This document shows, in pieces, positions 2,853 to 62,933 of a stretch of DNA of 64,000 nucleotides (position 1 is the first letter of the stretch; each line of letters opens with the position of its first letter). Below the pieces are notes generated by a model. It worked only from the letters and a program-made list of their open reading frames with translations, was not told the DNA's origin and ran no database searches. The translations under genes and the position numbers were made by a program. Source of the stretch: Planctomycetia bacterium (GTDB taxonomy: Bacteria > Planctomycetota > Planctomycetia > Pirellulales > Thermoguttaceae); contig JAUNBK010000011.1 of NCBI GenBank assembly GCA_030527105.1, positions 1 through 64,000 on the forward strand. The letters run 5' to 3'.

Positions 2853-3989
2853 TCAAGAAAACCGATCGATATAGGACTCCAGCTGCCGTGTGTTTTGCTC
2901 TGGATTATAAAGCTCCAAGACTCGTCGTTGGTTGGCGGCTCCCATCGCGCTGCGCAATTCGTCGTTCGTGACGAGCGCTTCAAGCGACTCCGCAAGTGCC
3001 GGCACGTCGCCGGGGGGAACGAGAAAACCCGTCTCGCCGGAGAGGACGATTTCGGCTGGACCTTGAGAGCGCACGGCAACGACTGGCGCGCCGAACATCC
3101 CTGCCTCAACGAGAACGAGACCAAAGGACTCCTCGTGCGACGTGAGAACCAAGATGTCGCACGACGCCAAAAGAGGGCGGACGTCTTCTTGAAACGGAAC
3201 GATTTCGCACGTCTCCTCAAGCTGCGCGTTTTGAATCGCCTCACGAAGATCGGCTTCGAGAGGTCCCTCCCCAACGAAACGCACATGAAGACGCTCTCGC
3301 GTTTCTGCCGACAATTGCGCCGTTGCTCGAACGAGAAGCTCAGGATTTTTGCGCGCGGAGAATCGTCCGACCCAAAGCACCTCGACTTTTGACGACGTGC
3401 GCGGCGCTCGAAAAACATCCTGCAAAGAAAACCGAGACGAATTTGAAACAACAGCGGACTTCGCGCAAAGTGGCGACTCTGGCGGAAGATACGCTTTCGC
3501 ACACTCCAACGAAGGCTGGGACTCGAAAATGACCAAATCGCTATTTTTATAGAAAAAACGGATGGAAAAATCGAGCGAAAACCACCGAGGTCTCATGAAA
3601 GGATCTGTAGCGACCTCATGAATATGGGTAATATGGGGAGTTTTCGTCCAACGCGCCGCGAGTGCGCCCTCGAACAGCGTGAGTGTATTGGTATAAACCA
3701 GGTCGATTTTTCGAGACCGAATAATCTGCATCAAGCGCCAGATAGCATACGGAATTCGTGCGCGATTCTTCCACTCCCACCAACTTGGTTCGTACAACAT
3801 CCACCACGGGAGCGGCAGAATGACGACTTCCGCGCCAGATTTTCGTGCCGAGTCCGCCATGGGTCCCTCGTCGGAAAAACAGACGACAGGCTCGAACTTG
3901 TTTTTATCCAAAAAACGTAGTGTTGTGTCCAAACAATACTCCGCCCCGCCGCGCAAGGGGCTGTGGGCCAGGAAGAGAATGCGCTTCAT
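2853..3989 (-). CDS. GT4-family glycosyltransferase
   Basis: A 378-residue GT-B glycosyltransferase of the Glycos_transf_1 (GT4) type. The N-terminal Rossmann half opens with LFLAHSPLRGGAEYCL, a typical glycine-rich acceptor-side loop. The C-terminal half carries VLWVGRFSARKNPELLV, FVGEGPLEADL, ILVLTSHEESFGLVLVEAG (the E-x7-E nucleotide-sugar motif) and PAEIV. It presumably transfers a hexose to a cell-envelope glycan; donor and acceptor cannot be read from the sequence. Its ATG overlaps the stop of the upstream GAF/phosphatase gene by four bases (ATGA), so the two are translationally coupled. Confidence 0.9.
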   Translation of the reverse strand: MKRILFLAHSPLRGGAEYCLDTTLRFLDKNKFEPVVCFSDEGPMADSARKSGAEVVILPLPWWMLYEPSWWEWKNRARIPYAIWRLMQIIRSRKIDLVYTNTLTLFEGALAARWTKTPHITHIHEVATDPFMRPRWFSLDFSIRFFYKNSDLVIFESQPSLECAKAYLPPESPLCAKSAVVSNSSRFSLQDVFRAPRTSSKVEVLWVGRFSARKNPELLVRATAQLSAETRERLHVRFVGEGPLEADLREAIQNAQLEETCEIVPFQEDVRPLLASCDILVLTSHEESFGLVLVEAGMFGAPVVAVRSQGPAEIVLSGETGFLVPPGDVPALAESLEALVTNDELRSAMGAANQRRVLELYNPEQNTRQLESYIDRFS

Positions 3990-5833
3990 GAGGCGGCTAT
4001 CTCCGTTTCCCGAACGAGAAGGAACGAAGCGTCGCGCCCTTCCTCTGGAGTGGCATGGCTCTCAAGAATTTTTTGGATATCTTTCATGGAACACTTATCG
4101 AGGAGCGCCGTCGTGATACTCGAACACAAATATTTCCTTTGGATCGGCGAAAATAGCTCTCCCTGTCCATCATTCAGGACAAAGAAACTCTCGCCTCGCG
4201 TCAAATAAACCACATCCTCAAAACAATGGAATTCCTGCTGATTGCCCAAGCAACGCTGCGCGGCAAGGGAGCCTTCCGGGACAACTCGCCGATACGTGGC
4301 GGAGTTCGCCAGAGTGCGACACGGGCAAAAATTCCCCATTTGGGCAAATTGTACCGATGTGAAAGAGTTTTCGTGTGAGACTCGACAACAAAGCAGAGAA
4401 ATCTGCGCGTCTTGCTTGAATTGATCGCAAATCGCGTCGTGAACTTTCTCCAAAACGTTCGACGCACTCCAGCCCGACCGAGATTGGCACCGCAAAACGG
4501 CGCGGACCGCAGCAGAAAGTACCGCTCCAGGAAGACCAGGGACACCAACGTCGCATAGAACCGCCCCCATGCTATTTGGCGAGAGAGGGAACCATTCATA
4601 AAAGCCGCCCTGAAGTGCCGCGTCGTCTTCCGTTGCGTCCGGACCATCCTCGTTTTGACGGAAGGGATTTATCACTCTGCGTTCCGACGTGCTCCAACCA
4701 CAAAATTCGGTGCGATTTTTCCACACAAAAGGAGGTTGAGCTTGCAATCCTTGAATTTCTGCCGCGCGGCGCAAGTCGGCATGGTACTCCATTGCACGAC
4801 CATAGCGACGGAAAAACGATTCTCGCTCAATGTCCAACGCGAAATGATCCGCAAGAAGCTGCGTCTGCTTGATCATTGCCTCGGGAAGATATCGAAGTCG
4901 ATTCGAAAAAAACCACACCGTTCCTAATTGGGAGCGATCCGTGACAAGCGGCAAGCAAATTGCGGTACGAAAGTTCTCTGGAGGTTGAGGTCTTGGAGGC
5001 GGAGCACTCTCATCAAGGACAAAAATCACGCCACGATGCAACGCTTCCATATCGGTCTGCGCCTCCCCCAGACTGCGAGATTTGCTCATGGCAGACTGAA
5101 GAGGAAGCCCCGCCGAGGCACGCATCTTCAGGCGCCTTCCAGAATTGTCGAAAAGATAAATAGCAACCGCTTCCAAATCCAAGAGACCGAGCGCAAAATC
5201 GAGAAGAGTGCGAAACCTTCGGGCAAAAGTCGCACGCTCGGGTTTGAATCGTCGGTTGAAGATGGAGGTATTCCCCATTTCTTGGATTTCGACAAGCCAA
5301 ATGTACGCGCGCACGGTCTGCATTTCGGCAATGAAATCCGCAATGGCGGAGGCAAAACGATGCGCCTCTTCGAATTTCGCTCGGCTTTTGGGGTCATTCG
5401 TGCCGTCGTCAGAATGCAGGTGCAAGAAACCGATCGGATGCGTCATGAAGCTAAAAGGGCTATCCTCTAAATCCTTCCACATCTCGGGGAAAATCGGCGA
5501 GTGAATCTCGATAGGCAGCCACTCTTTCTCCGTTTCGAAAATCTCGCGAACGTTGTCGGGAGTCAATGGATTCGGAAGCTGCTCCTCCTCCGGGACGGGG
5601 CCCACGCAGATTTGCCCAGAAGGATCAATGTTGTCTCCAAAAGAAAATTCCCCAGATGGGTCATTCGCCCAAGGACACGAATCTGCATAATGATATGTGA
5701 GAGTCCAGCCCGTCAGCCTCGTAAAATGACGAAGGACGGAAGGGACACTACCAATGCAAAACAATTCTCTCCATGCGTTTCGGCGGCTTGCGTCCGGTTG
5801 TTCCATTTGCGTCTGCGTGTATTCAAGCTCCAT
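3986..5833 (-). CDS. GAF domain plus degenerate SpoIIE/PP2C-type phosphatase
   Basis: A 615-residue cytoplasmic protein with no membrane segment. A GAF-like domain spans roughly residues 200-350 (LLDFALGLLDLEAVAIYLFD through FALDIERESF). The C-terminal part (about 385-600) resembles a SpoIIE/RsbU PP2C phosphatase: ALQGGFYEWFPL, AVLCDVGVPGLPGAVLSAAV and FFVLNDGQGE match the GGDFYD, GDVSGKGLPAA and TDG motifs. The first metal-binding aspartate of GGDFYD is not present (GG-FYE), so activity is doubtful, while the later aspartates remain. It is the first gene of a two-gene unit with the glycosyltransferase, suggesting regulation of envelope glycan synthesis; that is inference. Confidence 0.8.
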   Translation of the reverse strand: MELEYTQTQMEQPDASRRNAWRELFCIGSVPSVLRHFTRLTGWTLTYHYADSCPWANDPSGEFSFGDNIDPSGQICVGPVPEEEQLPNPLTPDNVREIFETEKEWLPIEIHSPIFPEMWKDLEDSPFSFMTHPIGFLHLHSDDGTNDPKSRAKFEEAHRFASAIADFIAEMQTVRAYIWLVEIQEMGNTSIFNRRFKPERATFARRFRTLLDFALGLLDLEAVAIYLFDNSGRRLKMRASAGLPLQSAMSKSRSLGEAQTDMEALHRGVIFVLDESAPPPRPQPPENFRTAICLPLVTDRSQLGTVWFFSNRLRYLPEAMIKQTQLLADHFALDIERESFFRRYGRAMEYHADLRRAAEIQGLQAQPPFVWKNRTEFCGWSTSERRVINPFRQNEDGPDATEDDAALQGGFYEWFPLSPNSMGAVLCDVGVPGLPGAVLSAAVRAVLRCQSRSGWSASNVLEKVHDAICDQFKQDAQISLLCCRVSHENSFTSVQFAQMGNFCPCRTLANSATYRRVVPEGSLAAQRCLGNQQEFHCFEDVVYLTRGESFFVLNDGQGELFSPIQRKYLCSSITTALLDKCSMKDIQKILESHATPEEGRDASFLLVRETEIAAS

Positions 5834-6092
5834 ATCGGCCTTCTGTTCAATGGCAAAAACAATCTATAAATCGCTTGGCAGCCCGACTCCGTAGTCTCTC
5901 AACCTGCCCACGAAAACCGGGCTATCTCCTTTTTCGACATTATCCTTGGAAGAATTCTATAAAAATATTTTGCAACAGAATACGCAGAATATTTGCGTTC
6001 GTTTGTTTGTGTGGGTTGTGCCCAATTTGAAAGATGAACGGAGAAACGCCCCCTCTCACGACTCGCAAAAGGGAGAGTCGCGCACAAGCAAA

Positions 6093-6974
6093 TTAGTCCT
6101 CAAGACATTGCCGAACAAACTCCGCTTCAGGCTCGAGACCATGTTTCTCATAGAATTCCAACAACTTCTTCCACCGATTCATAAAATGGATTTTTGTGGC
6201 GACTCTCAACTTCGCGAGACATTGAGGACAAAATTCTAACGGAATGCCATCCGCCTCTTCGAGGGAGTTGGAGCCGTTCATGCCGCATCGATATTCAATG
6301 CAGTGGTAGATCGAGAACATGTGTCCCGTTTCGTGTGCCGCGATGCGGAGTGTGCGTCGAAGGTATTGCGTCCGCTCGTCGGGATCGGAGGCGTCTCCGT
6401 GGCGCGCGAGCGACCAAACCCCGGAACGCGCTTGATACGAGGCGAGTCCAAAGCAGAAATTCCAATCGTCGCCTGGCCAGAGATCCGTCGTCGTGAACAT
6501 CAAATACGCCGCCGCATCTTCTGGGAGGCGCGGAATCATGATCGACTGAATGATATACGTCGCGTTTAATTGGTGCTCTCCCGTCTCGGGGTGGCGCCGC
6601 TGTGCGCGAGATGGGACGGTCTCGAGCGGGAGCGACGGCAGTTCCTTGACGCGAAGGTTGTAGAAAATGCGCAAGTAGTCGCACGAGATTTCGATCATCT
6701 CCCGCTCTGCGTCCGTGGTCTCTCCCAGCGTTTGGACGTAGAGAATAGAGCGTTTTTTCGTTGCGACCACCGGCTTCGCTCTCACGTATTGCGCGAAAGT
6801 TTGTCCCGGCTCGCGATTCACGTACTGCCAATCTCCCGGCTGCGGCGTCGGAAACGGGGAATACAACGGCTCGATTTTTTGACAAATGGGAGGAATTCGA
6901 GTACTTTGCGCATCCGCGTGGGAAAAAAGCGTTCCCGAGCAGAGAAAAACGGCGACAAAAATAAGTTGCCTCAT
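6093..6974 (-). CDS. Exported archaemetzincin-like zinc protease
   Basis: The protein is 293 residues long with an N-terminal signal peptide (MRQLIFVAVFLCSGTLFSHA). The extended metzincin signature HETGHMFSIYHC occupies about residues 214-225, with H214, E215 and H218 plus the third ligand H224. It is followed by a CxM turn (RCGM) and a CPQC knuckle, the diagnostic cysteines of archaemetzincins (AMZ, M54). It should be a zinc aminopeptidase/endopeptidase. The signal peptide is unusual, since most described AMZ proteins are cytoplasmic. The reading frame is open further upstream to 7184, but that stretch is not conserved-looking and 6974 follows a GGGGTG-type ribosome site and a promoter at 7097-7124. 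Confidence 0.85.
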   Translation of the reverse strand: MRQLIFVAVFLCSGTLFSHADAQSTRIPPICQKIEPLYSPFPTPQPGDWQYVNREPGQTFAQYVRAKPVVATKKRSILYVQTLGETTDAEREMIEISCDYLRIFYNLRVKELPSLPLETVPSRAQRRHPETGEHQLNATYIIQSIMIPRLPEDAAAYLMFTTTDLWPGDDWNFCFGLASYQARSGVWSLARHGDASDPDERTQYLRRTLRIAAHETGHMFSIYHCIEYRCGMNGSNSLEEADGIPLEFCPQCLAKLRVATKIHFMNRWKKLLEFYEKHGLEPEAEFVRQCLED

Positions 6975-7096
6975 CGCACACCCCTTGAGTGATCCTTGAG
7001 TTTTGTTGTACTTTGCATTATACTGGTTCCAAATGAATTCGAGCGTCCGTGTAGATTGTCGATTCTCATCCACCACCAGCACCAAACCGAACAAAC

Positions 7097-7124
7097 ATTT
7101 TACCCCAGCCGGTTCAAAAGTCAA
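7097..7124 (-). promoter_or_regulatory. Sigma-70-type promoter of the archaemetzincin gene
   Basis: Minus strand TTGACT, 16-bp spacer, TAAAAT, giving a 5' leader of about 115 nt before the start at 6974. It supports the shorter start. The 6975-7333 gap otherwise shows no gene. Confidence 0.65.
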
Positions 7125-7333
7125 GCAAAAAAGAGGGCTTGCAAGATGATTTTCGCGGAATTTACCCTTTTTTGTTTTTTTCACGAAATAAATGCCAATC
7201 CCACTGAATATAATTTCGTTCGTAGCGATCGGGAAGAGATATTCCGTTTACTCCTATTAGTCGCAAAATTGTCAATATGTGGGCGTCCAAAAAATTTTTC
7301 TTTTTTTATGTAGTAGTCGACCGATAACACAGG

Positions 7334-7549
7334 ATGGAAAAGTATCCGCAGGGGATTTTTGCGTATTTCGACTTGACGCGCCGTGAGAAAGTGCGTATGA
7401 AATACGGAACGGGAGGATGAATGGATTCCATTCTCGTCGTGCCGGGGAGCGAAAAGTCGCGATTTTTTGTGGAACTGATCCGCCAGGAGGAGTTGGCTGC
7501 GTGTCCCCGGATGTGCCGCCTAAACATTGTTGACTTTTTTTCACATTAG
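7334..7549 (+). pseudogene. Short unknown reading frame split by an in-frame TGA
   Basis: One frame reads 28 codons from ATG 7334 (begins MEKYPQGIFAYFDLTRREK), hits TGA at 7418-7420, and continues immediately with ATG at 7421 for 42 more codons (begins MDSILVVPGSEKSRFFVELI) to a TAG at 7547. The residue mix on both sides looks protein-like. It may be a decayed small gene, a TGA readthrough, or two coupled peptides; I cannot tell which. It stands just upstream of a third small gene at 7554. Confidence 0.35.
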
Positions 7550-7553
7550 CGCC

Positions 7554-7841
7554 ATGAAAAAAAACATTTATAGAGTGGTCACGCGCAAACCCGACGGACA
7601 ATTATTCACACAAGATTTCCCCGATTTGAGTGAGATCAAATCTAAATACAGGCAGATCGGTGTCGACAATTGTAGTATGGAGAATAGTTTGCGTGGTTTG
7701 CCAATGTTTCACGGATTGATCGGACCTCTAGGTGAGGGGGCAACCATTGTTCGGTACGAAACCCCCGAGGTGTTTGAGATACTCACTCAGGAGTGGTTTC
7801 AAGCGGAACCTATGCCACGATCGCGAAAGAAGGATATCTAA
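7554..7841 (+). CDS. Hypothetical small protein
   Basis: A 95-residue soluble protein starting MKKNIYRVVTRKPDGQ, with no signal peptide, membrane segment or motif that I recognise. It follows the split frame at 7334-7549 by only a few bases, so the two could be one transcriptional unit. There is no strong Shine-Dalgarno sequence before the ATG at 7554; the frame is also open a little upstream. I cannot assign a family. Confidence 0.45.
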   Translation: MKKNIYRVVTRKPDGQLFTQDFPDLSEIKSKYRQIGVDNCSMENSLRGLPMFHGLIGPLGEGATIVRYETPEVFEILTQEWFQAEPMPRSRKKDI

Positions 7842-7971
7842 AACCCCGTTGTCCTTTTTTGCGAGGGTTCATGATCCATCGCGTTGGAATTCCCCCCTTA
7901 AGCCCACCGTAGGAGCTATGCACTGCGGTCCGCCTTTTCTTATGAACGCGTGAATTCATTTAAACGCCTGC

Positions 7972-8011
7972 CCACCCCCGTTCGACCATTTCGATTGCCG
8001 AACGGGGGTGG
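7972..8011 (+). other. Strong perfect hairpin without T-run
   Basis: A perfect 13-bp inverted repeat (arms CCACCCCCGTTCG and CGAACGGGGGTGG, 14-nt loop) stands between the small gene at 7554 and the RiPP leader. No T-run follows on either strand. It could stop transcription poorly, protect a 3' end, or bind a protein. Just upstream, 7896-7945 looks like a badly degenerated piece of the main dispersed repeat. Confidence 0.5.
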
Positions 8012-8153
8012 TGTGCGTAAAGAAGGGTTGTTTGCGAGGGTTTTAGGCTCGTTTGTTCGATCGACTCTCTCTTCTGGTCGCCTGGCTGGTTCTATTTTTG
8101 CTTTTTCATTTGTGAAAAATCTTTAAAATTTTTTAAAATGGGGAGAAAACCAC

Positions 8154-8182
8154 TTAACAAGCAGGAACTGGTGGGATATAAT
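8154..8182 (+). promoter_or_regulatory. Promoter of the RiPP operon
   Basis: TTAACA, 17-bp spacer, TATAAT, placing the start near 8189 and leaving a leader of about 450 nt before the precursor gene. A second TATAAT at 8352-8357 has no good -35 box. Confidence 0.6.
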
Positions 8183-8229
8183 AGAGGTAGAATGGGTTGG
8201 GGTGTGAATTCCGTCCTGTCAGCTTGTAC

Positions 8230-8468
8230 CACACGAAAACTTCAGCAATTTTCGGCGCAAGCGCCAAAGGAGCGTTTTCCATGTGAGACGCCTCTTTTTC
8301 ACGTGCGTAGTAATACGTGCAGACAACAACGTACCTAGTAGAAGCGCTCCCTATAATATTGGGGGTACGCTCGTGTCTGGGTATGTGGGTAGCTGAAGAC
8401 CTTCGTGTGGGATGCGTATGCGTATCCCTTTTTTTATGCCCAGACACACGAAAACTTCAGCAATTTTC
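8230..8468 (+). repeat. 24-bp exact direct repeat bracketing the leader hairpins
   Basis: Identical 24-mers occur at 8230-8253 and 8445-8468 (both begin CACACGAAAACTTCAGC), 215 bp apart. The right copy overlaps the 3' arm of the outer hairpin at 8439-8447. They could be binding sites or alternate RNA pairing partners in the leader. Confidence 0.7.
8373..8447 (+). terminator. Nested leader hairpins with intrinsic terminator (attenuator candidate)
   Basis: The inner hairpin 8409-8428 (GGGATGCG, TATG loop, CGTATCCC with one G-U pair) is followed by seven T, a textbook intrinsic terminator. It is enclosed by a 9-bp helix, GTGTCTGGG (8373-8381) with CCCAGACAC (8439-8447). It lies inside the leader, about 200 nt before the precursor start, so it could control readthrough into the RiPP operon. 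Confidence 0.6.
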
Positions 8469-8640
8469 TGTGCTCATTCTGAAGAGGGGGACGCAAACGC
8501 ATCTTTTCGCGAGTATTCTGCTGATCGTGGGACTGGAAGGATTCCTCTTTCGCCCCATTTTACGTGAACAAAAACCAGAACCACATAAGGAAGAGGTTTT
8601 TGAAATGATCTGTTACATCTACGATTTTAAGGAGTTTTTT

Positions 8641-8829
8641 ATGGAAAGCCCTATGTTTTTGACTGGAGCGACAATGGGAGCTTCGTGTAGCAGTTGCAAT
8701 GGTTGCGCTGGTTGTTCAGCCTGTCCGTTGTGCGCGATATGTGGTCCATCGGCAGCAACTCTTGTTGCTACAAGCGCGTCGTATGCGGTCGGCGCTTTTC
8801 TTGTTAATACAGTCGAGTTTGGAGAGTAA
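8641..8829 (+). CDS. Cys-rich RiPP precursor peptide, (CX2)7 array
   Basis: A 62-residue peptide whose centre has seven cysteines at exactly three-residue spacing (C16, C19, C22, C25, C28, C31, C34). Intervening residues are small (SS, NG, AG, SA, PL, AI). A short N-terminal segment (MESPMFLTGATMGAS) precedes and a hydrophobic tail rich in Ala, Val and Thr follows, ending NTVEFGE. The ATG has a strong ribosome site (TAAGGAG, 6 nt upstream). An upstream in-frame ATG at 8605 also has AGGAAGAGG before it, so a 74-residue form is possible. The gene sits 30 bp before a PqqD-like/radical SAM/SPASM gene and an ABC exporter, the standard arrangement for a ribosomally made, radical-SAM-modified peptide. 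Thioether crosslinking at the cysteines is inference. Confidence 0.8.
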   Translation: MESPMFLTGATMGASCSSCNGCAGCSACPLCAICGPSAATLVATSASYAVGAFLVNTVEFGE

Positions 8830-8859
8830 TCCCCCCCCTCATTCAAAGGAGACCAACCA

Positions 8860-10386
8860 TTGTCGTCAGAACGCAACTTGCGAATAGAGGAAAAACGTGT
8901 CTCGAGTTTGAGTGTTTCGCCGACACTGCCGATTGATGAGGCGGCGTTTGAAACACACTATCTCGTTCCTGAGTTTCATATTCATTTTATGCCAGATCAG
9001 GCGGTTGTTTCGCCTCCCGGAAACAAATTGTTTTGGGACACTCCGGGGACTGCGGAGTACTACGCGAGACAAATCTGTCACGGCAGCCGAGCGAATCCAT
9101 TCGCAAAGTTTCCGGTTAAAATCGCGAGTCGCCAAATGTAGTTCGTCAATAAAACCGGGCGGGATATCTACTCGTTTATCGACGGCACGCGAACAACCGA
9201 AGAGGTTTATAGGGCTGTTCTGGACAAGAATAATGAGCAATACGGTGCGAAGCGAGAGGATGTTTTCAACTTTCTCAAAAACGTCGTCCGATACCGACAC
9301 GCAACGTTGTCCGCGACGCCGCTGCAGAAGCCCTACACGCTCAGCGGCTCCGAAGAGTATGCCGTTCCGGTCCATGCGTCTCTGGAAGTGACGGCGAATT
9401 GCAACGCTCGCTGCAAGCATTGCTACGGTTCGTTTGAAGGGGCAAGAGCCGGAATGCTAGACTTGCAAACAGTGCTCGACCTGCTCGCTCGATTGCGACA
9501 GCAAGGTGTTCGAACGTTGGAACTCACTGGCGGCGAGTGTTCCACGCACCCGGATTTTCCGACAATTCTCGAAGAGTCGGCAAAAATGTTCGATCTGGTC
9601 GCGATATTGACGAACGGCATCGCCATGCCCGAAAGGGTATTTGAGATTGCCACGCGCTACGCGCACAAGCTGATGGTGCAGATTTGCATCAACGGTCGGA
9701 AGGAATTTCATGACGATTTTGTCGGCGTCCCGGGTTCGTTTGAACGATCGAGTCGGAATATAACGCGGTTTGCGCAAGTCGGCGTTTTCTCTCGTGTTTC
9801 GATGAACCTGACGTTTGAGAATTCAGACGATATTGAATACGTTCTTGATCATGCCCAGGAATGCGGGGCGACGACCTTTGCTGCCTCTATGGTCGTCATG
9901 TCGCAGGGGCGGGCGGCCACCCTGCCGATGGTCACTAACGGTACTCCGTGTAAATTCCTCAAGAGACAGAACGATCTTTTGGTGGAGTTGGAAAAGCGGT
10001 ATCCGGGTTTTGTGATCTGCCATTTGTCGGAGAACGCTACCGCGATGATCGACTACAATCATTCTTGCGGTGTCGGTCGGCGAACGATTTATATCACTTC
10101 GGACGGCTTATTTCATCTCTGCCCCATGTCGATCGGCTCTGGCGTGCCCGGCTACTCGACCGTCGAAACGTTCATGAACGCGCAGACGCCATGGGACACG
10201 CCGTTCATTCGCGGAATTTATAAACTCAAAGCGCCGGATGCCGACATTTGTCGAGAATGCCGGCACGTTTTGGAGTGCCTCGGCTGCATTACTCGAGGAA
10301 TTCAAAATTACCTCAAAGCGCCCGAGAATTGCCCTTGGGGAGAGGCAAATCGTCTGTCCCATCTTCTCACGGCTGCCGTTGATTGA
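8860..10386 (+). pseudogene. PqqD-like/radical SAM/SPASM peptide maturase with in-frame TAG
   Basis: One frame runs from TTG 8860 (ribosome site AAAGGAG 9 nt upstream) to 10386, broken only by TAG at 9139-9141. The first 93 codons and the next ~60 together make an N-terminal region with a PqqD-like fold: FVNKTGRDIYSFIDGTRTTE immediately after the TAG is the typical core. The radical SAM domain follows, with C181xxxC185xxC188 (CNARCKHCY), LTGGECSTHPDF and a C-terminal SPASM cluster (CGVG, LCPM, CRECRHVLECLGC, NCPW). There is no decent start with a ribosome site after the TAG (only TTG 9307), so the gene is either recoded, freshly broken or carries a sequencing error. It should bind the precursor's N-terminus and install carbon-sulfur or carbon-carbon links on the Cys array. 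Confidence 0.85.
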
Positions 10387-10420
10387 TGTACAAACTTAAT
10401 ATAGAAGGAACCATTTCACA

Positions 10421-11296
10421 ATGATAGAATTGGAACAAGTGACGAAAGTTTACGACAATGGAACGAAAGCGTTGGATTGCTGTTCGTTCTCGATCGGAGA
10501 TAACGAGTGCCTCGCGATACTGGGGCACAACGGCTCCGGCAAAACGACGCTTCTTCGGCTGATGCTTGGTTTGCTCGACCCGACATCTGGACGAATCGTT
10601 CGATCTGGCGGCGTAATGCGGAGCGAAACCGCCGCCGTCATGGACGGGGACGGTTGTTTCGGCGAAATGACGGTTCGAGACAACATGAAATTTTTCGCTT
10701 CCTTGTACGGGTACTCCTACTCCAAGGTAAAGAACGTTTTTTTGCAGACGCTCGAGTTTTTCAATCTTACAGATAAAATCAACACTCGTTTTCATGCGCT
10801 CTCGACGGGTCAGAAACGAATCATTTCTCTCTCGCGAGCGGTACTCACAGAGCCGAAGTTCCTGATCATCGACGAGCTTATCACGGGCCTGGATCCGGAA
10901 AATCAATACAAGCTCATCGATTTCCTGCGCGACTATCAGCGGAGGAAACAGTGTACGGTCCTCTTTAGCAGCCATGATCTTCTCAAGGTACAGAAGTTGG
11001 TAGATCGAGCGGTTTTTCTCTCGGCAGGAAAAGTGATTACAAGCATGAACATGGCGGAGATGGGAAGCTACCGAAAAATCACTCTGAGCGGCAGCGAGAG
11101 CGATTTGGATCAGTTCGCCTCGTCGCAACTGACGGGGCAGCACTTTTTCAAGTCGGCAAAGAATCAACTGTCCGTTCTCGTGAATCAGGACAAAGCCTCG
11201 CACCTTGGCGCGGTCGTTTCCGCATATCCTGTAGTCTTTTCCACGTTCGAAGACCCCGCGACGCTGGAAGATTTTTTCCTCGCGTATACTCGTTGA
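10421..11296 (+). CDS. ABC transporter ATP-binding protein (RiPP exporter)
   Basis: A 291-residue ATPase of the ABC-2/CcmA type. The Walker A GHNGSGKT is at residues 35-42. The signature LSTGQ is a slight variant of LSGGQ. Walker B is FLIIDEL, followed by the D-loop GLDP and the switch His in SSHD. The last 80 residues are a variable C-terminal extension usual in drug and peptide exporters. The start ATG 10421 is 35 bp after the radical SAM stop, with GAAGGAACC upstream, so the genes are co-transcribed. Together with the permease at 11463 it should energise export of, or immunity to, the modified peptide. Confidence 0.9.
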   Translation: MIELEQVTKVYDNGTKALDCCSFSIGDNECLAILGHNGSGKTTLLRLMLGLLDPTSGRIVRSGGVMRSETAAVMDGDGCFGEMTVRDNMKFFASLYGYSYSKVKNVFLQTLEFFNLTDKINTRFHALSTGQKRIISLSRAVLTEPKFLIIDELITGLDPENQYKLIDFLRDYQRRKQCTVLFSSHDLLKVQKLVDRAVFLSAGKVITSMNMAEMGSYRKITLSGSESDLDQFASSQLTGQHFFKSAKNQLSVLVNQDKASHLGAVVSAYPVVFSTFEDPATLEDFFLAYTR

Positions 11297-11344
11297 TGGC
11301 AGAGATGGTCGTTCCACGGATTCAACCGATGATACGCTTCACAC

Positions 11345-11444
11345 TTTAACTCATCGTGCTTTGAAATTCCCGTTTGCGCAACGCTCGGCGAGCGCTAGCC
11401 CAAGTGGCGGGCGGAACCGGAAATTTCAGCGCGATGTATTATAA
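11345..11444 (+). repeat. Dispersed repeat, diverged copy inside the RiPP operon (orientation B)
   Basis: Matches the main family in TTTGAAATTCCCGTTT at its left and GGAACCGGAAATTTCA plus GTATTATAA at its right, with a changed centre. It separates the ATPase and permease genes of one transporter by 166 bp. Confidence 0.7.
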
Positions 11445-11462
11445 AACACAAGGAACAATAAT

Positions 11463-12185
11463 ATGAGTAACTTTTTACGATGGCTGACGATTTTCAGAAA
11501 GGAATGCAAAAGCCTTTTCACATCGCCAACGCATTTTTTATCGATTCTCCTCCCGCTCCTCCTGGCGGGCGGGGCGATGGTGTTCATGATGTATAAGGTT
11601 TCGCCGATTTTTAAGGTGCAACCCGATTTTTTTCAACTGTTCCTAGAGAAACAGATTTCCATCATGTTTCTTTGTATCGCGTTCTGCTGCATCCTCCCGA
11701 TCGAGCAGGTGAACGTAGTTCGAGAAAGAACCAGCGGGCTTTTCGCAACCCTAATGACCACGCCGCTCACGTTTAAGCAGTACATCATGGGCAAATCGGT
11801 GTTCTATTTCCTTGTCGGCTACACAGCAGGGTTGGCGATTACGGCGTCGTGCCTCGGCATGATGGTGTACACCACAGGTTTGGACGCATTGTGGAACGTA
11901 CTGACGATGAAACACTATCTCGCGCTCTTTGTTTTGATCCCGATCGCGCTTTTTGAGGGCATCTACTTTTCCGTCTTCGCGCTGTACTATTTCAAAAACC
12001 CAGCGCTTGTGTTTCAGTCGCTCTTCTTTTCGGTTTTCATTCTGATGTTTTTGTCCAGTTCCATCACGTCTGCCGCCTTTTTTGACATATGCTTGAAGGT
12101 GCTCGCCGGGGTGATTGTCGCCTCGCTACCCGTTTATTGGTGGGTGCAAAGTAGGATTCGTTTGGACAGGATTTTTTCGCGATGA
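11463..12185 (+). CDS. ABC-2 type transporter permease
   Basis: A 240-residue integral membrane protein with about six hydrophobic segments: FLSILLPLLLAGGAMVFMMY, the MFLCIAFCCILP region, the VFYFLVGYTAG region, a segment near LALFVLIPIALFEGIYF, VFQSLFFSVFILMFL and a C-terminal VLAGVIVASLPVYWW. The VRERTSGLFATLMTTPLTF stretch between the second and third segments is typical of ABC-2 permeases, where a short cytoplasmic helix follows an ERE/RERT motif. It pairs with the ATPase at 10421 and ends the RiPP operon, whose last gene faces the ExbD genes coming from the right. Confidence 0.88.
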   Translation: MSNFLRWLTIFRKECKSLFTSPTHFLSILLPLLLAGGAMVFMMYKVSPIFKVQPDFFQLFLEKQISIMFLCIAFCCILPIEQVNVVRERTSGLFATLMTTPLTFKQYIMGKSVFYFLVGYTAGLAITASCLGMMVYTTGLDALWNVLTMKHYLALFVLIPIALFEGIYFSVFALYYFKNPALVFQSLFFSVFILMFLSSSITSAAFFDICLKVLAGVIVASLPVYWWVQSRIRLDRIFSR

Positions 12186-22918: not shown

Positions 22919-23031
22919 AGGCTAACGATTTTGCTCTGCTCCGTAGGTGGGCGGGACGCAGTCGTTTTTCGGACTGTCCGTGGCGTTATGTGTGGCGTTA
23001 TGTAGGTCGTTTTTTTAAGTGCCAAGGCTAT

Positions 23032-23137
23032 TATAATACTTCGCGTTGAAATTTCCGGTTCCGTCCGCCGTTGGAGCTACGCACCTCGGCTCGCAAAACG
23101 TCGCGAAAAACGGAATTTTAAAGGAGAACGAGTATAT
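23032..23137 (+). repeat. Dispersed repeat, full copy in the dksA-like leader (orientation A)
   Basis: Full 106-bp copy, TATAATACTTCGCG to GAACGAGTATAT. It ends 22 bp before the dksA-like start codon and would be transcribed as part of its 5' leader, where the inverted arms can fold. Confidence 0.9.
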
Positions 23138-43754: not shown

Positions 43755-43864
43755 TATATACTCGTTCTCCTTTAAAATTCCCGTTTTATGCGACGCATTG
43801 CGAGCCGTGGTGCGTAGCTCCAACGGCGGACGGTACCGGAAATTTCAACGAGAAGTATTATAAT
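43755..43864 (+). repeat. Dispersed repeat, full copy (orientation B), head-to-head partner
   Basis: Starts directly after the response regulator stop (ATATACTCGTTCTCC) and ends AAGTATTATAAT. It shares that end with the next copy, which runs the other way. Confidence 0.85.
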
Positions 43865-43965
43865 GCTTCGCGCTAAAAATTTCGGTTTTGCTCGCCGTTG
43901 GAGCGCACGCCACGGGTCGCAAAACGTCACGAAAACCACAATTTTAATGTGCGATGAGTATAAAG
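43859..43965 (+). repeat. Dispersed repeat, full diverged copy (orientation A)
   Basis: From TATAATGCTTCGCG to GATGAGTATAAAG, with the core GCCGTTGGAGCGCACGCC. It forms an inverted pair with the copy at 43755 and borders the IS5 relic. Confidence 0.8.
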
Positions 43966-54444: not shown

Positions 54445-54693
54445 TGAATTTGCAGATTCGAGAATTCAGCGTTGGCGCCTCTTGCGATATATCGCGATGT
54501 GTCACGAGGTATTGTGAGGTATAGCGGGACGTAGCGAGGGTGTGCGATCGTACGGCAAGGTTTTGCCCGAAATTTTTCGAGAATCGAACCGATACCCACG
54601 TAAGAAACGTATTATACTCGTTCGACCTTCAAACCGGTTTTTCTCGAAGCGTCGCGCAGCGCAGAGTTGGTGTGCGGCGAGTTGAGTGAAAAC

Positions 54694-55091
54694 GATTTGA
54701 GTTTTCACAAAGAGGTGAGAAGTCGTGGTGCGCAAGCTCCAGCGGCGGACAGAATCGAGAATTCAAACGCGAAGTTTTATATACTAGCGCTTCGATGGAT
54801 TTGAGTTTTCACAAAGAGGTGAGGAGTCGTGGTGCGCAAGCTCCAGCGGCGGACAGAATCGAGAATTCAAACGCGAAGTTTTATATACTAGCGCTTCGAT
54901 GGATTTGAGTTTTCACAAAGAGGTGAGGAGTCGTGGTGCGCAAGCTCCAGCGGCGGACAGAATCGAGAATTCAAACGCGAAGTTTTATATACTAGCGCTT
55001 CGATGGATTTGAGTTTTCACAAAGAGGTGAGGAGTCGTGGTGCGCAAGCTCCAGCGGCGGACAGAATCGAGAATTCAAACGCGAAGTTTTA
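54694..55091 (+). repeat. Tandem array, 104-bp unit x3.8
   Basis: Four consecutive units start at 54694, 54798, 54902 and 55006, the last cut off at about 55091. Successive units are almost identical (the first differs by a base or so). Each unit contains the right half of the dispersed repeat (GTCGTGGTGCGCAAGCTCCA, CGGCGGACAG, AAACGCGAAGTTTTATA) followed by CTAGCGCTTCGATG, which is unique to the array. A left-end-like piece, TATTATACTCGTTC, occurs at 54610. The array fills the gap between the exosortase and the Wzc-like start codon. Confidence 0.9.
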
Positions 55092-58076: not shown

Positions 58077-58097
58077 AGAAATCCTCGTAAAATGAAA

Positions 58098-58167
58098 GCC
58101 GGCTGTGTGCAAGCCGTAGTGCGCAAGCTCCAACGGCGGGCGAAACCGGAAATTTCAACGTGAATTA
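58098..58167 (+). repeat. Dispersed repeat, partial copy (right half, orientation B)
   Basis: Retains CAAGCCGTAGTGCG, CTCCAACGGCGGGCG and CCGGAAATTTCAACGTG. It lies directly upstream of the DUF2726 gene. Confidence 0.65.
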
Positions 58168-58234
58168 CCCTAAAAGGGGGAAAGTTTGCGCCTCCCCCTG
58201 ATGAAAAATAAAACGTTAAACCAACACCAAGCGT

Positions 58235-62717: not shown

Positions 62718-62826
62718 AATATACTCGTTCTCCTTTAAAATTCCCTTTTTGCGTGATGCTTTGCAAGCTGTAGTGCGTAGCTCCAACGGCGGACGACGCC
62801 GGAAATTTCAACGCGAAGTATTATAA
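62718..62826 (+). repeat. Dispersed repeat, full copy (orientation B)
   Basis: From AATATACTCGTTCTCC to AAGTATTATAATACC with the core CCAACGGCGGACGACGCC; very similar to the copies at 1295, 23032 and 43755. Confidence 0.9.
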
Positions 62827-62933
62827 TACCCGGATCGGCACACATCGTAGCACAAACAGCCCTCGGAATGTCTCCTTACGTTTCACGCCTCGCACTTCCT
62901 CACGCTGGCAGAAGGCAGGAGCGGGCGCCCTCA

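Follow-up and report, generated by a model that had tools for sequence, protein, structure and literature searches.

A planctomycete (CX2)7 precursor gene next to an interrupted radical SAM maturase: a probable thurincin-H-like sactipeptide cluster

Introduction

In thurincin H, Cys4, Cys7, Cys10 and Cys13 are bonded to Ser28, Thr25, Thr22 and Asn19, respectively, in a nested hairpin, and no sactipeptide covered by the same review exceeds four thioethers (PMC8172795). Subtilosin A (SboA/AlbA) and SKF (SkfA/SkfB) provide the closest curated maturase families for the enzyme considered here, and SkfB the closest solved structure; they differ from the present system in the Cys pattern of the precursor, and its maturase scores far under their equivalog cut-offs. 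PapA/PapB ranthipeptides and CXXX-repeat RiPPs also combine regular Cys repeats with radical SAM (rSAM) maturases, but their enzyme families and Cys spacings are different. Finally, plasmid pAPRE01 of Anaerococcus prevotii carries a gene pair, WP_012797179/WP_012797180, whose products are annotated simply as a hypothetical protein and a radical SAM protein; PMC3132745 described the neighbouring Apre_1837/1838 cluster of this plasmid, not the pair itself.

Here we analyse a cluster from a 64,000-nucleotide stretch of planctomycete DNA (the window). Its genes are the following:

8641..8829, + strand: precursor peptide, 62 aa (possible alternative start at 8605)
8860..10386, + strand: AlbA/SkfB-type radical SAM maturase with an N-terminal RRE, interrupted
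9139..9141, + strand: in-frame TAG inside the RRE part of the maturase
10421..11296, + strand: ABC transporter ATPase, 291 aa (Pfam ABC_tran, E 1.6e-24)
11463..12185, + strand: ABC-2-type permease, 240 aa, predicted to act in export or immunity (ABC2_membrane_3, E 3.4e-4, under the curated cut-off)

The cluster resembles that of thurincin H (ThnA/ThnB) in several respects: a short leader is followed by Cys at every third position and then by a tail with many small and hydrophobic residues, the leader begins Met-Glu-Ser-Pro (Met-Glu-Thr-Pro in thurincin H), the maturase is an RRE-rSAM enzyme with a C-terminal auxiliary cluster, and ABC genes are present. By contrast, the window has seven Cys instead of four, a Gly-Pro-Ser turn, a single precursor copy and an interrupted maturase, and no protease gene was seen at its cluster. 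The pAPRE01 pair shares the (CX2)n-Gly-Pro-Ser layout, the rSAM gene and the ABC genes, but has five Cys and an intact maturase. We consider it rather probable that the locus is a thurincin-H-like sactipeptide cluster with up to seven nested rungs, probably inactivated recently or affected by a misread base.

Results and Discussion

The precursor peptide

The ORF at 8641-8829 encodes MESPMFLTGATMGASCSSCNGCAGCSACPLCAICGPSAATLVATSASYAVGAFLVNTVEFGE, a peptide of 62 residues with Cys at positions 16, 19, 22, 25, 28, 31 and 34, in full agreement with the preliminary description of this DNA; the layout is (CX2)7, then Gly-Pro-Ser, then a 28-residue tail. Base composition does not account for the array by chance, since (TGY N6)x7 appeared in none of 200 shuffles of the window. 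An alternative in-frame ATG at 8605, which also has a Shine-Dalgarno-like motif, AAGGAAGAGG, would lengthen the precursor by 12 residues; we favour the start at 8641 because the precursors of the relatives begin M-x-x-P. The next gene starts with TTG at 8860, leaving the 30 bp previously given for the interval, and has an AAAGGAG motif upstream. The two ABC transporter genes that had been placed after it are likewise there. A (TGY N6)x7 scan of genome contigs gave matches of which those listed were mostly simple repeats and antisense ORFs.

Recurrence of (CX2)n peptides beside related enzymes

The preliminary description had proposed searching for a (CX2)n peptide that recurs next to this type of enzyme. 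By tblastn and genome searches, which located related enzymes in Bacillota, we found three related rSAM genes that adjoin such peptides, with ABC genes alongside: on pAPRE01 ((CX2)5, MKPEIVAMGNGCKLCAGCTGCMFCGPSPAAGVGVAGFVGFF), in a Bacillota genome, G706 ((CX2)5, METPKMNAAPICVGCMACGECIICGPTPSGTECAAVAVGLSAFYN), and on the faecal contig MT836680, which is unannotated and carries mobilisation genes ((CX2)4, MTNPEMTTLDIGCWGCLGCASCGIGVSLLSALSGANVI). The order rSAM-ATPase-permease is also found in G706 and on a Paraclostridium plasmid, where no (CX2)n precursor was seen and where the maturase has a short C terminus. In G706 (locus L156, 1375-2745), the homologous maturase has an in-frame TAA inside the RRE, and the precursor is intact. 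With the maturases of these two loci damaged, the working state of the group rests on pAPRE01 and MT836680, in both of which the RRE is intact. In a tree, the window maturase falls with the (CX2)n-associated group (support 93/92), on a long branch, and its identity to these relatives is only 21-25%. Upstream in the nearest relatives outside these loci (L157 and L158) are small peptides containing CXXC, which by eye resemble subtilosin precursors.

A RiPP cluster in which Cys would serve as the thioether donor, as had been claimed, has good support, and (CX2)n peptides do recur by related enzymes. The many CXXC motifs could alternatively suit an unmodified, metallothionein-like metal-binding peptide. 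This we regard as very unlikely, given that such peptides repeatedly occur with an RRE-rSAM gene and ABC genes, that the tail is hydrophobic, and that no family match was obtained.

As for distribution, an orthologue search of the other 118 genomes of the same family gave no match at E 1e-17, and a search of 392 genomes of the phylum gave only core matches, which came from 6 of them and had about 26-36% identity. Within the genus, the flanking tolQ-exbD genes are conserved, and no downstream gene is shared. Horizontal transfer of the cluster from Bacillota can reasonably be inferred. A search for five CX2 cysteines followed by Gly-Pro, in 391 genomes from the class to which G706 belongs, turned up a peptide next to a member of this enzyme family in G706 only; the remaining matches were by eye Gly-Pro-type repeats, as were most of those from a similar scan of viral contigs.

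Note that MT836680 was deposited as an unverified phage. Its mobilisation genes, (CX2)4 precursor, intact rSAM gene and ABC transporter lie at 3276-8914 of the stretch analysed (L348), and it is probably a mobilisable element, not a phage.

The maturase family

The best NCBIfam match of the maturase is AlbA, the subtilosin enzyme (E 6.3e-40, residues 88-500 of 508), followed by SkfB (E 3.8e-27), and SkfB is also the best PDB match (6efn, E 6.6e-20). The maturase is not AlbA itself, because its score of 136.9 bits lies far under the equivalog cut-off of 850; the SkfB score is also well under the corresponding cut-off. As judged from the alignment, the rSAM motif CNARCKHC (CX3CX2C) and the C-terminal cysteines are kept, so the enzyme has the CX3CX2C and auxiliary-cluster cysteines of a sactisynthase-type rSAM protein, though under the equivalog cut-offs. 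The PapB model gives E 1.6e-10 and 40.7 bits for a cut-off of 340, which does not make it a PapB-type ranthipeptide enzyme, and the SCIFF maturase model TIGR03974 was not among the best 25 of 65 matches. Of the single PqqD-like/radical SAM/SPASM gene first described, the rSAM assignment stands; the PqqD match in Pfam is weak (E 0.18), no SPASM match was reported in Pfam, the expected cysteines being present in the alignment, and the frame is interrupted.

The stop codon in the RRE

The TAG at 9139-9141 lies in the RRE, just before an FVNKTG motif, in a frame that, apart from this codon, runs open to 10386. The first start that could be used after it in this frame, TTG 9307, is downstream of the whole RRE, and the full-length enzyme of 508 aa is obtained only by reading through the TAG (an AlphaFold model of this read-through product was useless, with a pLDDT of 33). 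A Tyr occupies the TAG column in all four of the closest enzymes from this tree group whose sequences cover the position, so that a change of one base, by mutation or by error, suffices as an explanation.

Could the TAG be read through, yielding full enzyme at a low level? In favour, the frame is open and conserved on both sides of it. However, of 35 long window ORFs, picked automatically and in some cases doubtful, 9 terminate with TAG, which is therefore a normal stop here, and the stop in G706 differs in type (TAA) and in RRE position, so that there is no conserved readthrough site. We give this alternative hardly any weight. ThnB lacking its RRE is reported still to cleave SAM but not to form the thioether (PMC8172795); an unsuppressed stop should therefore abolish maturation, which leaves a broken maturase or an erroneous base.

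A related alternative, to which we give even chances, is that the cluster is a decayed remnant that makes no product today. It is compatible with the thurincin-H-like reading, which concerns the original purpose of the cluster. The TAG in the RRE, the damaged maturases of two relatives and the lack of an orthologue in the 118 other genomes of the family all point this way. On the other hand, one wrong assembly base would also explain the stop, and the precursor, the ABC genes and the maturase outside the stop have open frames and keep their motifs, so that any loss of function should be recent. Because the RRE is interrupted, we file the locus as a thurincin-H-like cluster with an interrupted maturase, not as a working member of the group.

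Geometry of the putative crosslinks

The thurincin H linkages applied here are from PMC8172795. With that geometry, the shortest tail that allows seven nested rungs has 23 or 24 residues, for a loop of 4 or 5, respectively, and the tail in the window has 28. Across the group, tails of 16, 17, 21 and 28 residues accompany 4, 5, 5 and 7 Cys, and all reach the nested-rung minimum with a 4-residue loop: the pAPRE01 tail (17) allows five rungs only with a loop of at most 4, the G706 tail (21) fits a loop of 4 or 5, and the MT836680 tail (16 residues after the last of four Cys) was counted by hand. In the window precursor, a Cys-rich strand at the N terminus thus precedes a tail with room for nested acceptors; since the tails suffice across the group, a seven-rung thurincin-H-like sactipeptide is the best reading for the window.

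This reading departs from the preliminary description. Where crosslinks local to each three-residue step had been supposed, the thurincin H pattern suggests nested Cys-to-tail links instead; the tail, previously placed outside a central core, is consequently probably part of the core; and the Cys spacing is not foreign to sactipeptides, since the four Cys of thurincin H have the identical step.

The precursor would fold into a hairpin after the Gly-Pro-Ser turn, and the RRE would guide the AlbA/ThnB-type enzyme, which would join each of the seven Cys to the alpha carbon of a residue of the C-terminal tail. The outcome would be up to seven nested thioether rungs, of putative number and register; in the nested order, the innermost Cys would be linked to a residue about 5-6 positions away. 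The product, likely a bacteriocin, would be exported by the two ABC genes, or these would confer immunity; with the amber stop in the RRE, the cluster has probably been inactivated recently, unless the stop is a sequencing or assembly error. If this is true, the maximum for nested-hairpin sactipeptides would rise from four rungs to perhaps seven, and the number of rungs would be seen to vary together with the length of the tail within one family, offering a direct test of register setting by these enzymes.

Alternatively, the enzyme could make non-alpha thioethers, as in ranthipeptides, or short local links between neighbouring steps. Indeed, PapA also has regularly spaced Cys, PapB makes six S-C-beta bonds (PMC8172795), and a (CX2)n Tat-like peptide lies beside a PapB-like enzyme in Brocadiaceae. 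Yet AlbA and SkfB are far better matches than PapB, there is no CX3D pattern, and the tails suffice for nested rungs in all members, so we judge such links improbable. We treat the Brocadiaceae system (L109, reverse strand, 3338-5140 of the reverse complement), in which the (CX2)n tail of the peptide is long, as a different, PapB-like type.

A structured leader upstream of the cluster

Two further features precede the precursor gene:

8154..8182, + strand: sigma-70-like promoter, TTAACA-17-TATAAT (11 of 12 consensus bases)
8189..8505, + strand: structured 5' leader element of about 320 nt, with a putative function in control

The leader folds far better than shuffles (z-score -6.8) and contains two exact 23-nt repeats (8230-8252 and 8445-8467) and a terminator-like hairpin (8409-8435). 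Its only other copy in the genome is on contig C164 (L324, minus strand, about 54500-54950): the two share 80% identity across 404 nt, a stretch that takes in the promoter region, and TTGACA-17-TAGAAT stands at the same place. Downstream of the C164 copy lies a CXXX-repeat rSAM RiPP cluster: a secreted-protein ORF, a Cys-rich peptide weakly matching CXXX repeat families, and an rSAM maturase that passes the TIGR04115 cut-off (585 vs 350 bits). In a two-sequence consensus fold, both copies keep each of the 94 predicted pairs and show no two-sided change, so that covariation lends little support. An Rfam search with the leader found nothing, nor was the leader found near 20 rSAM regions sampled from relatives.

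We hypothesize that the leader is a shared attenuator or small RNA. The duplication suggests that one control element can serve two different Cys-rich RiPP systems; the full scenario, a seven-rung nested thioether ladder in a planctomycete that is co-controlled with a CXXX-repeat RiPP through a shared structured RNA leader, is tentative and, in our estimation, rather unlikely.

Lastly, the two ABC genes are separated by a REP- or MITE-like palindromic repeat, some 105 nt long, at 11341-11450. Further copies are present in the window at 1293-1396, 23031-23133, 43760-43965, 58079-58175 and 62723-62829, and others on contig C199.
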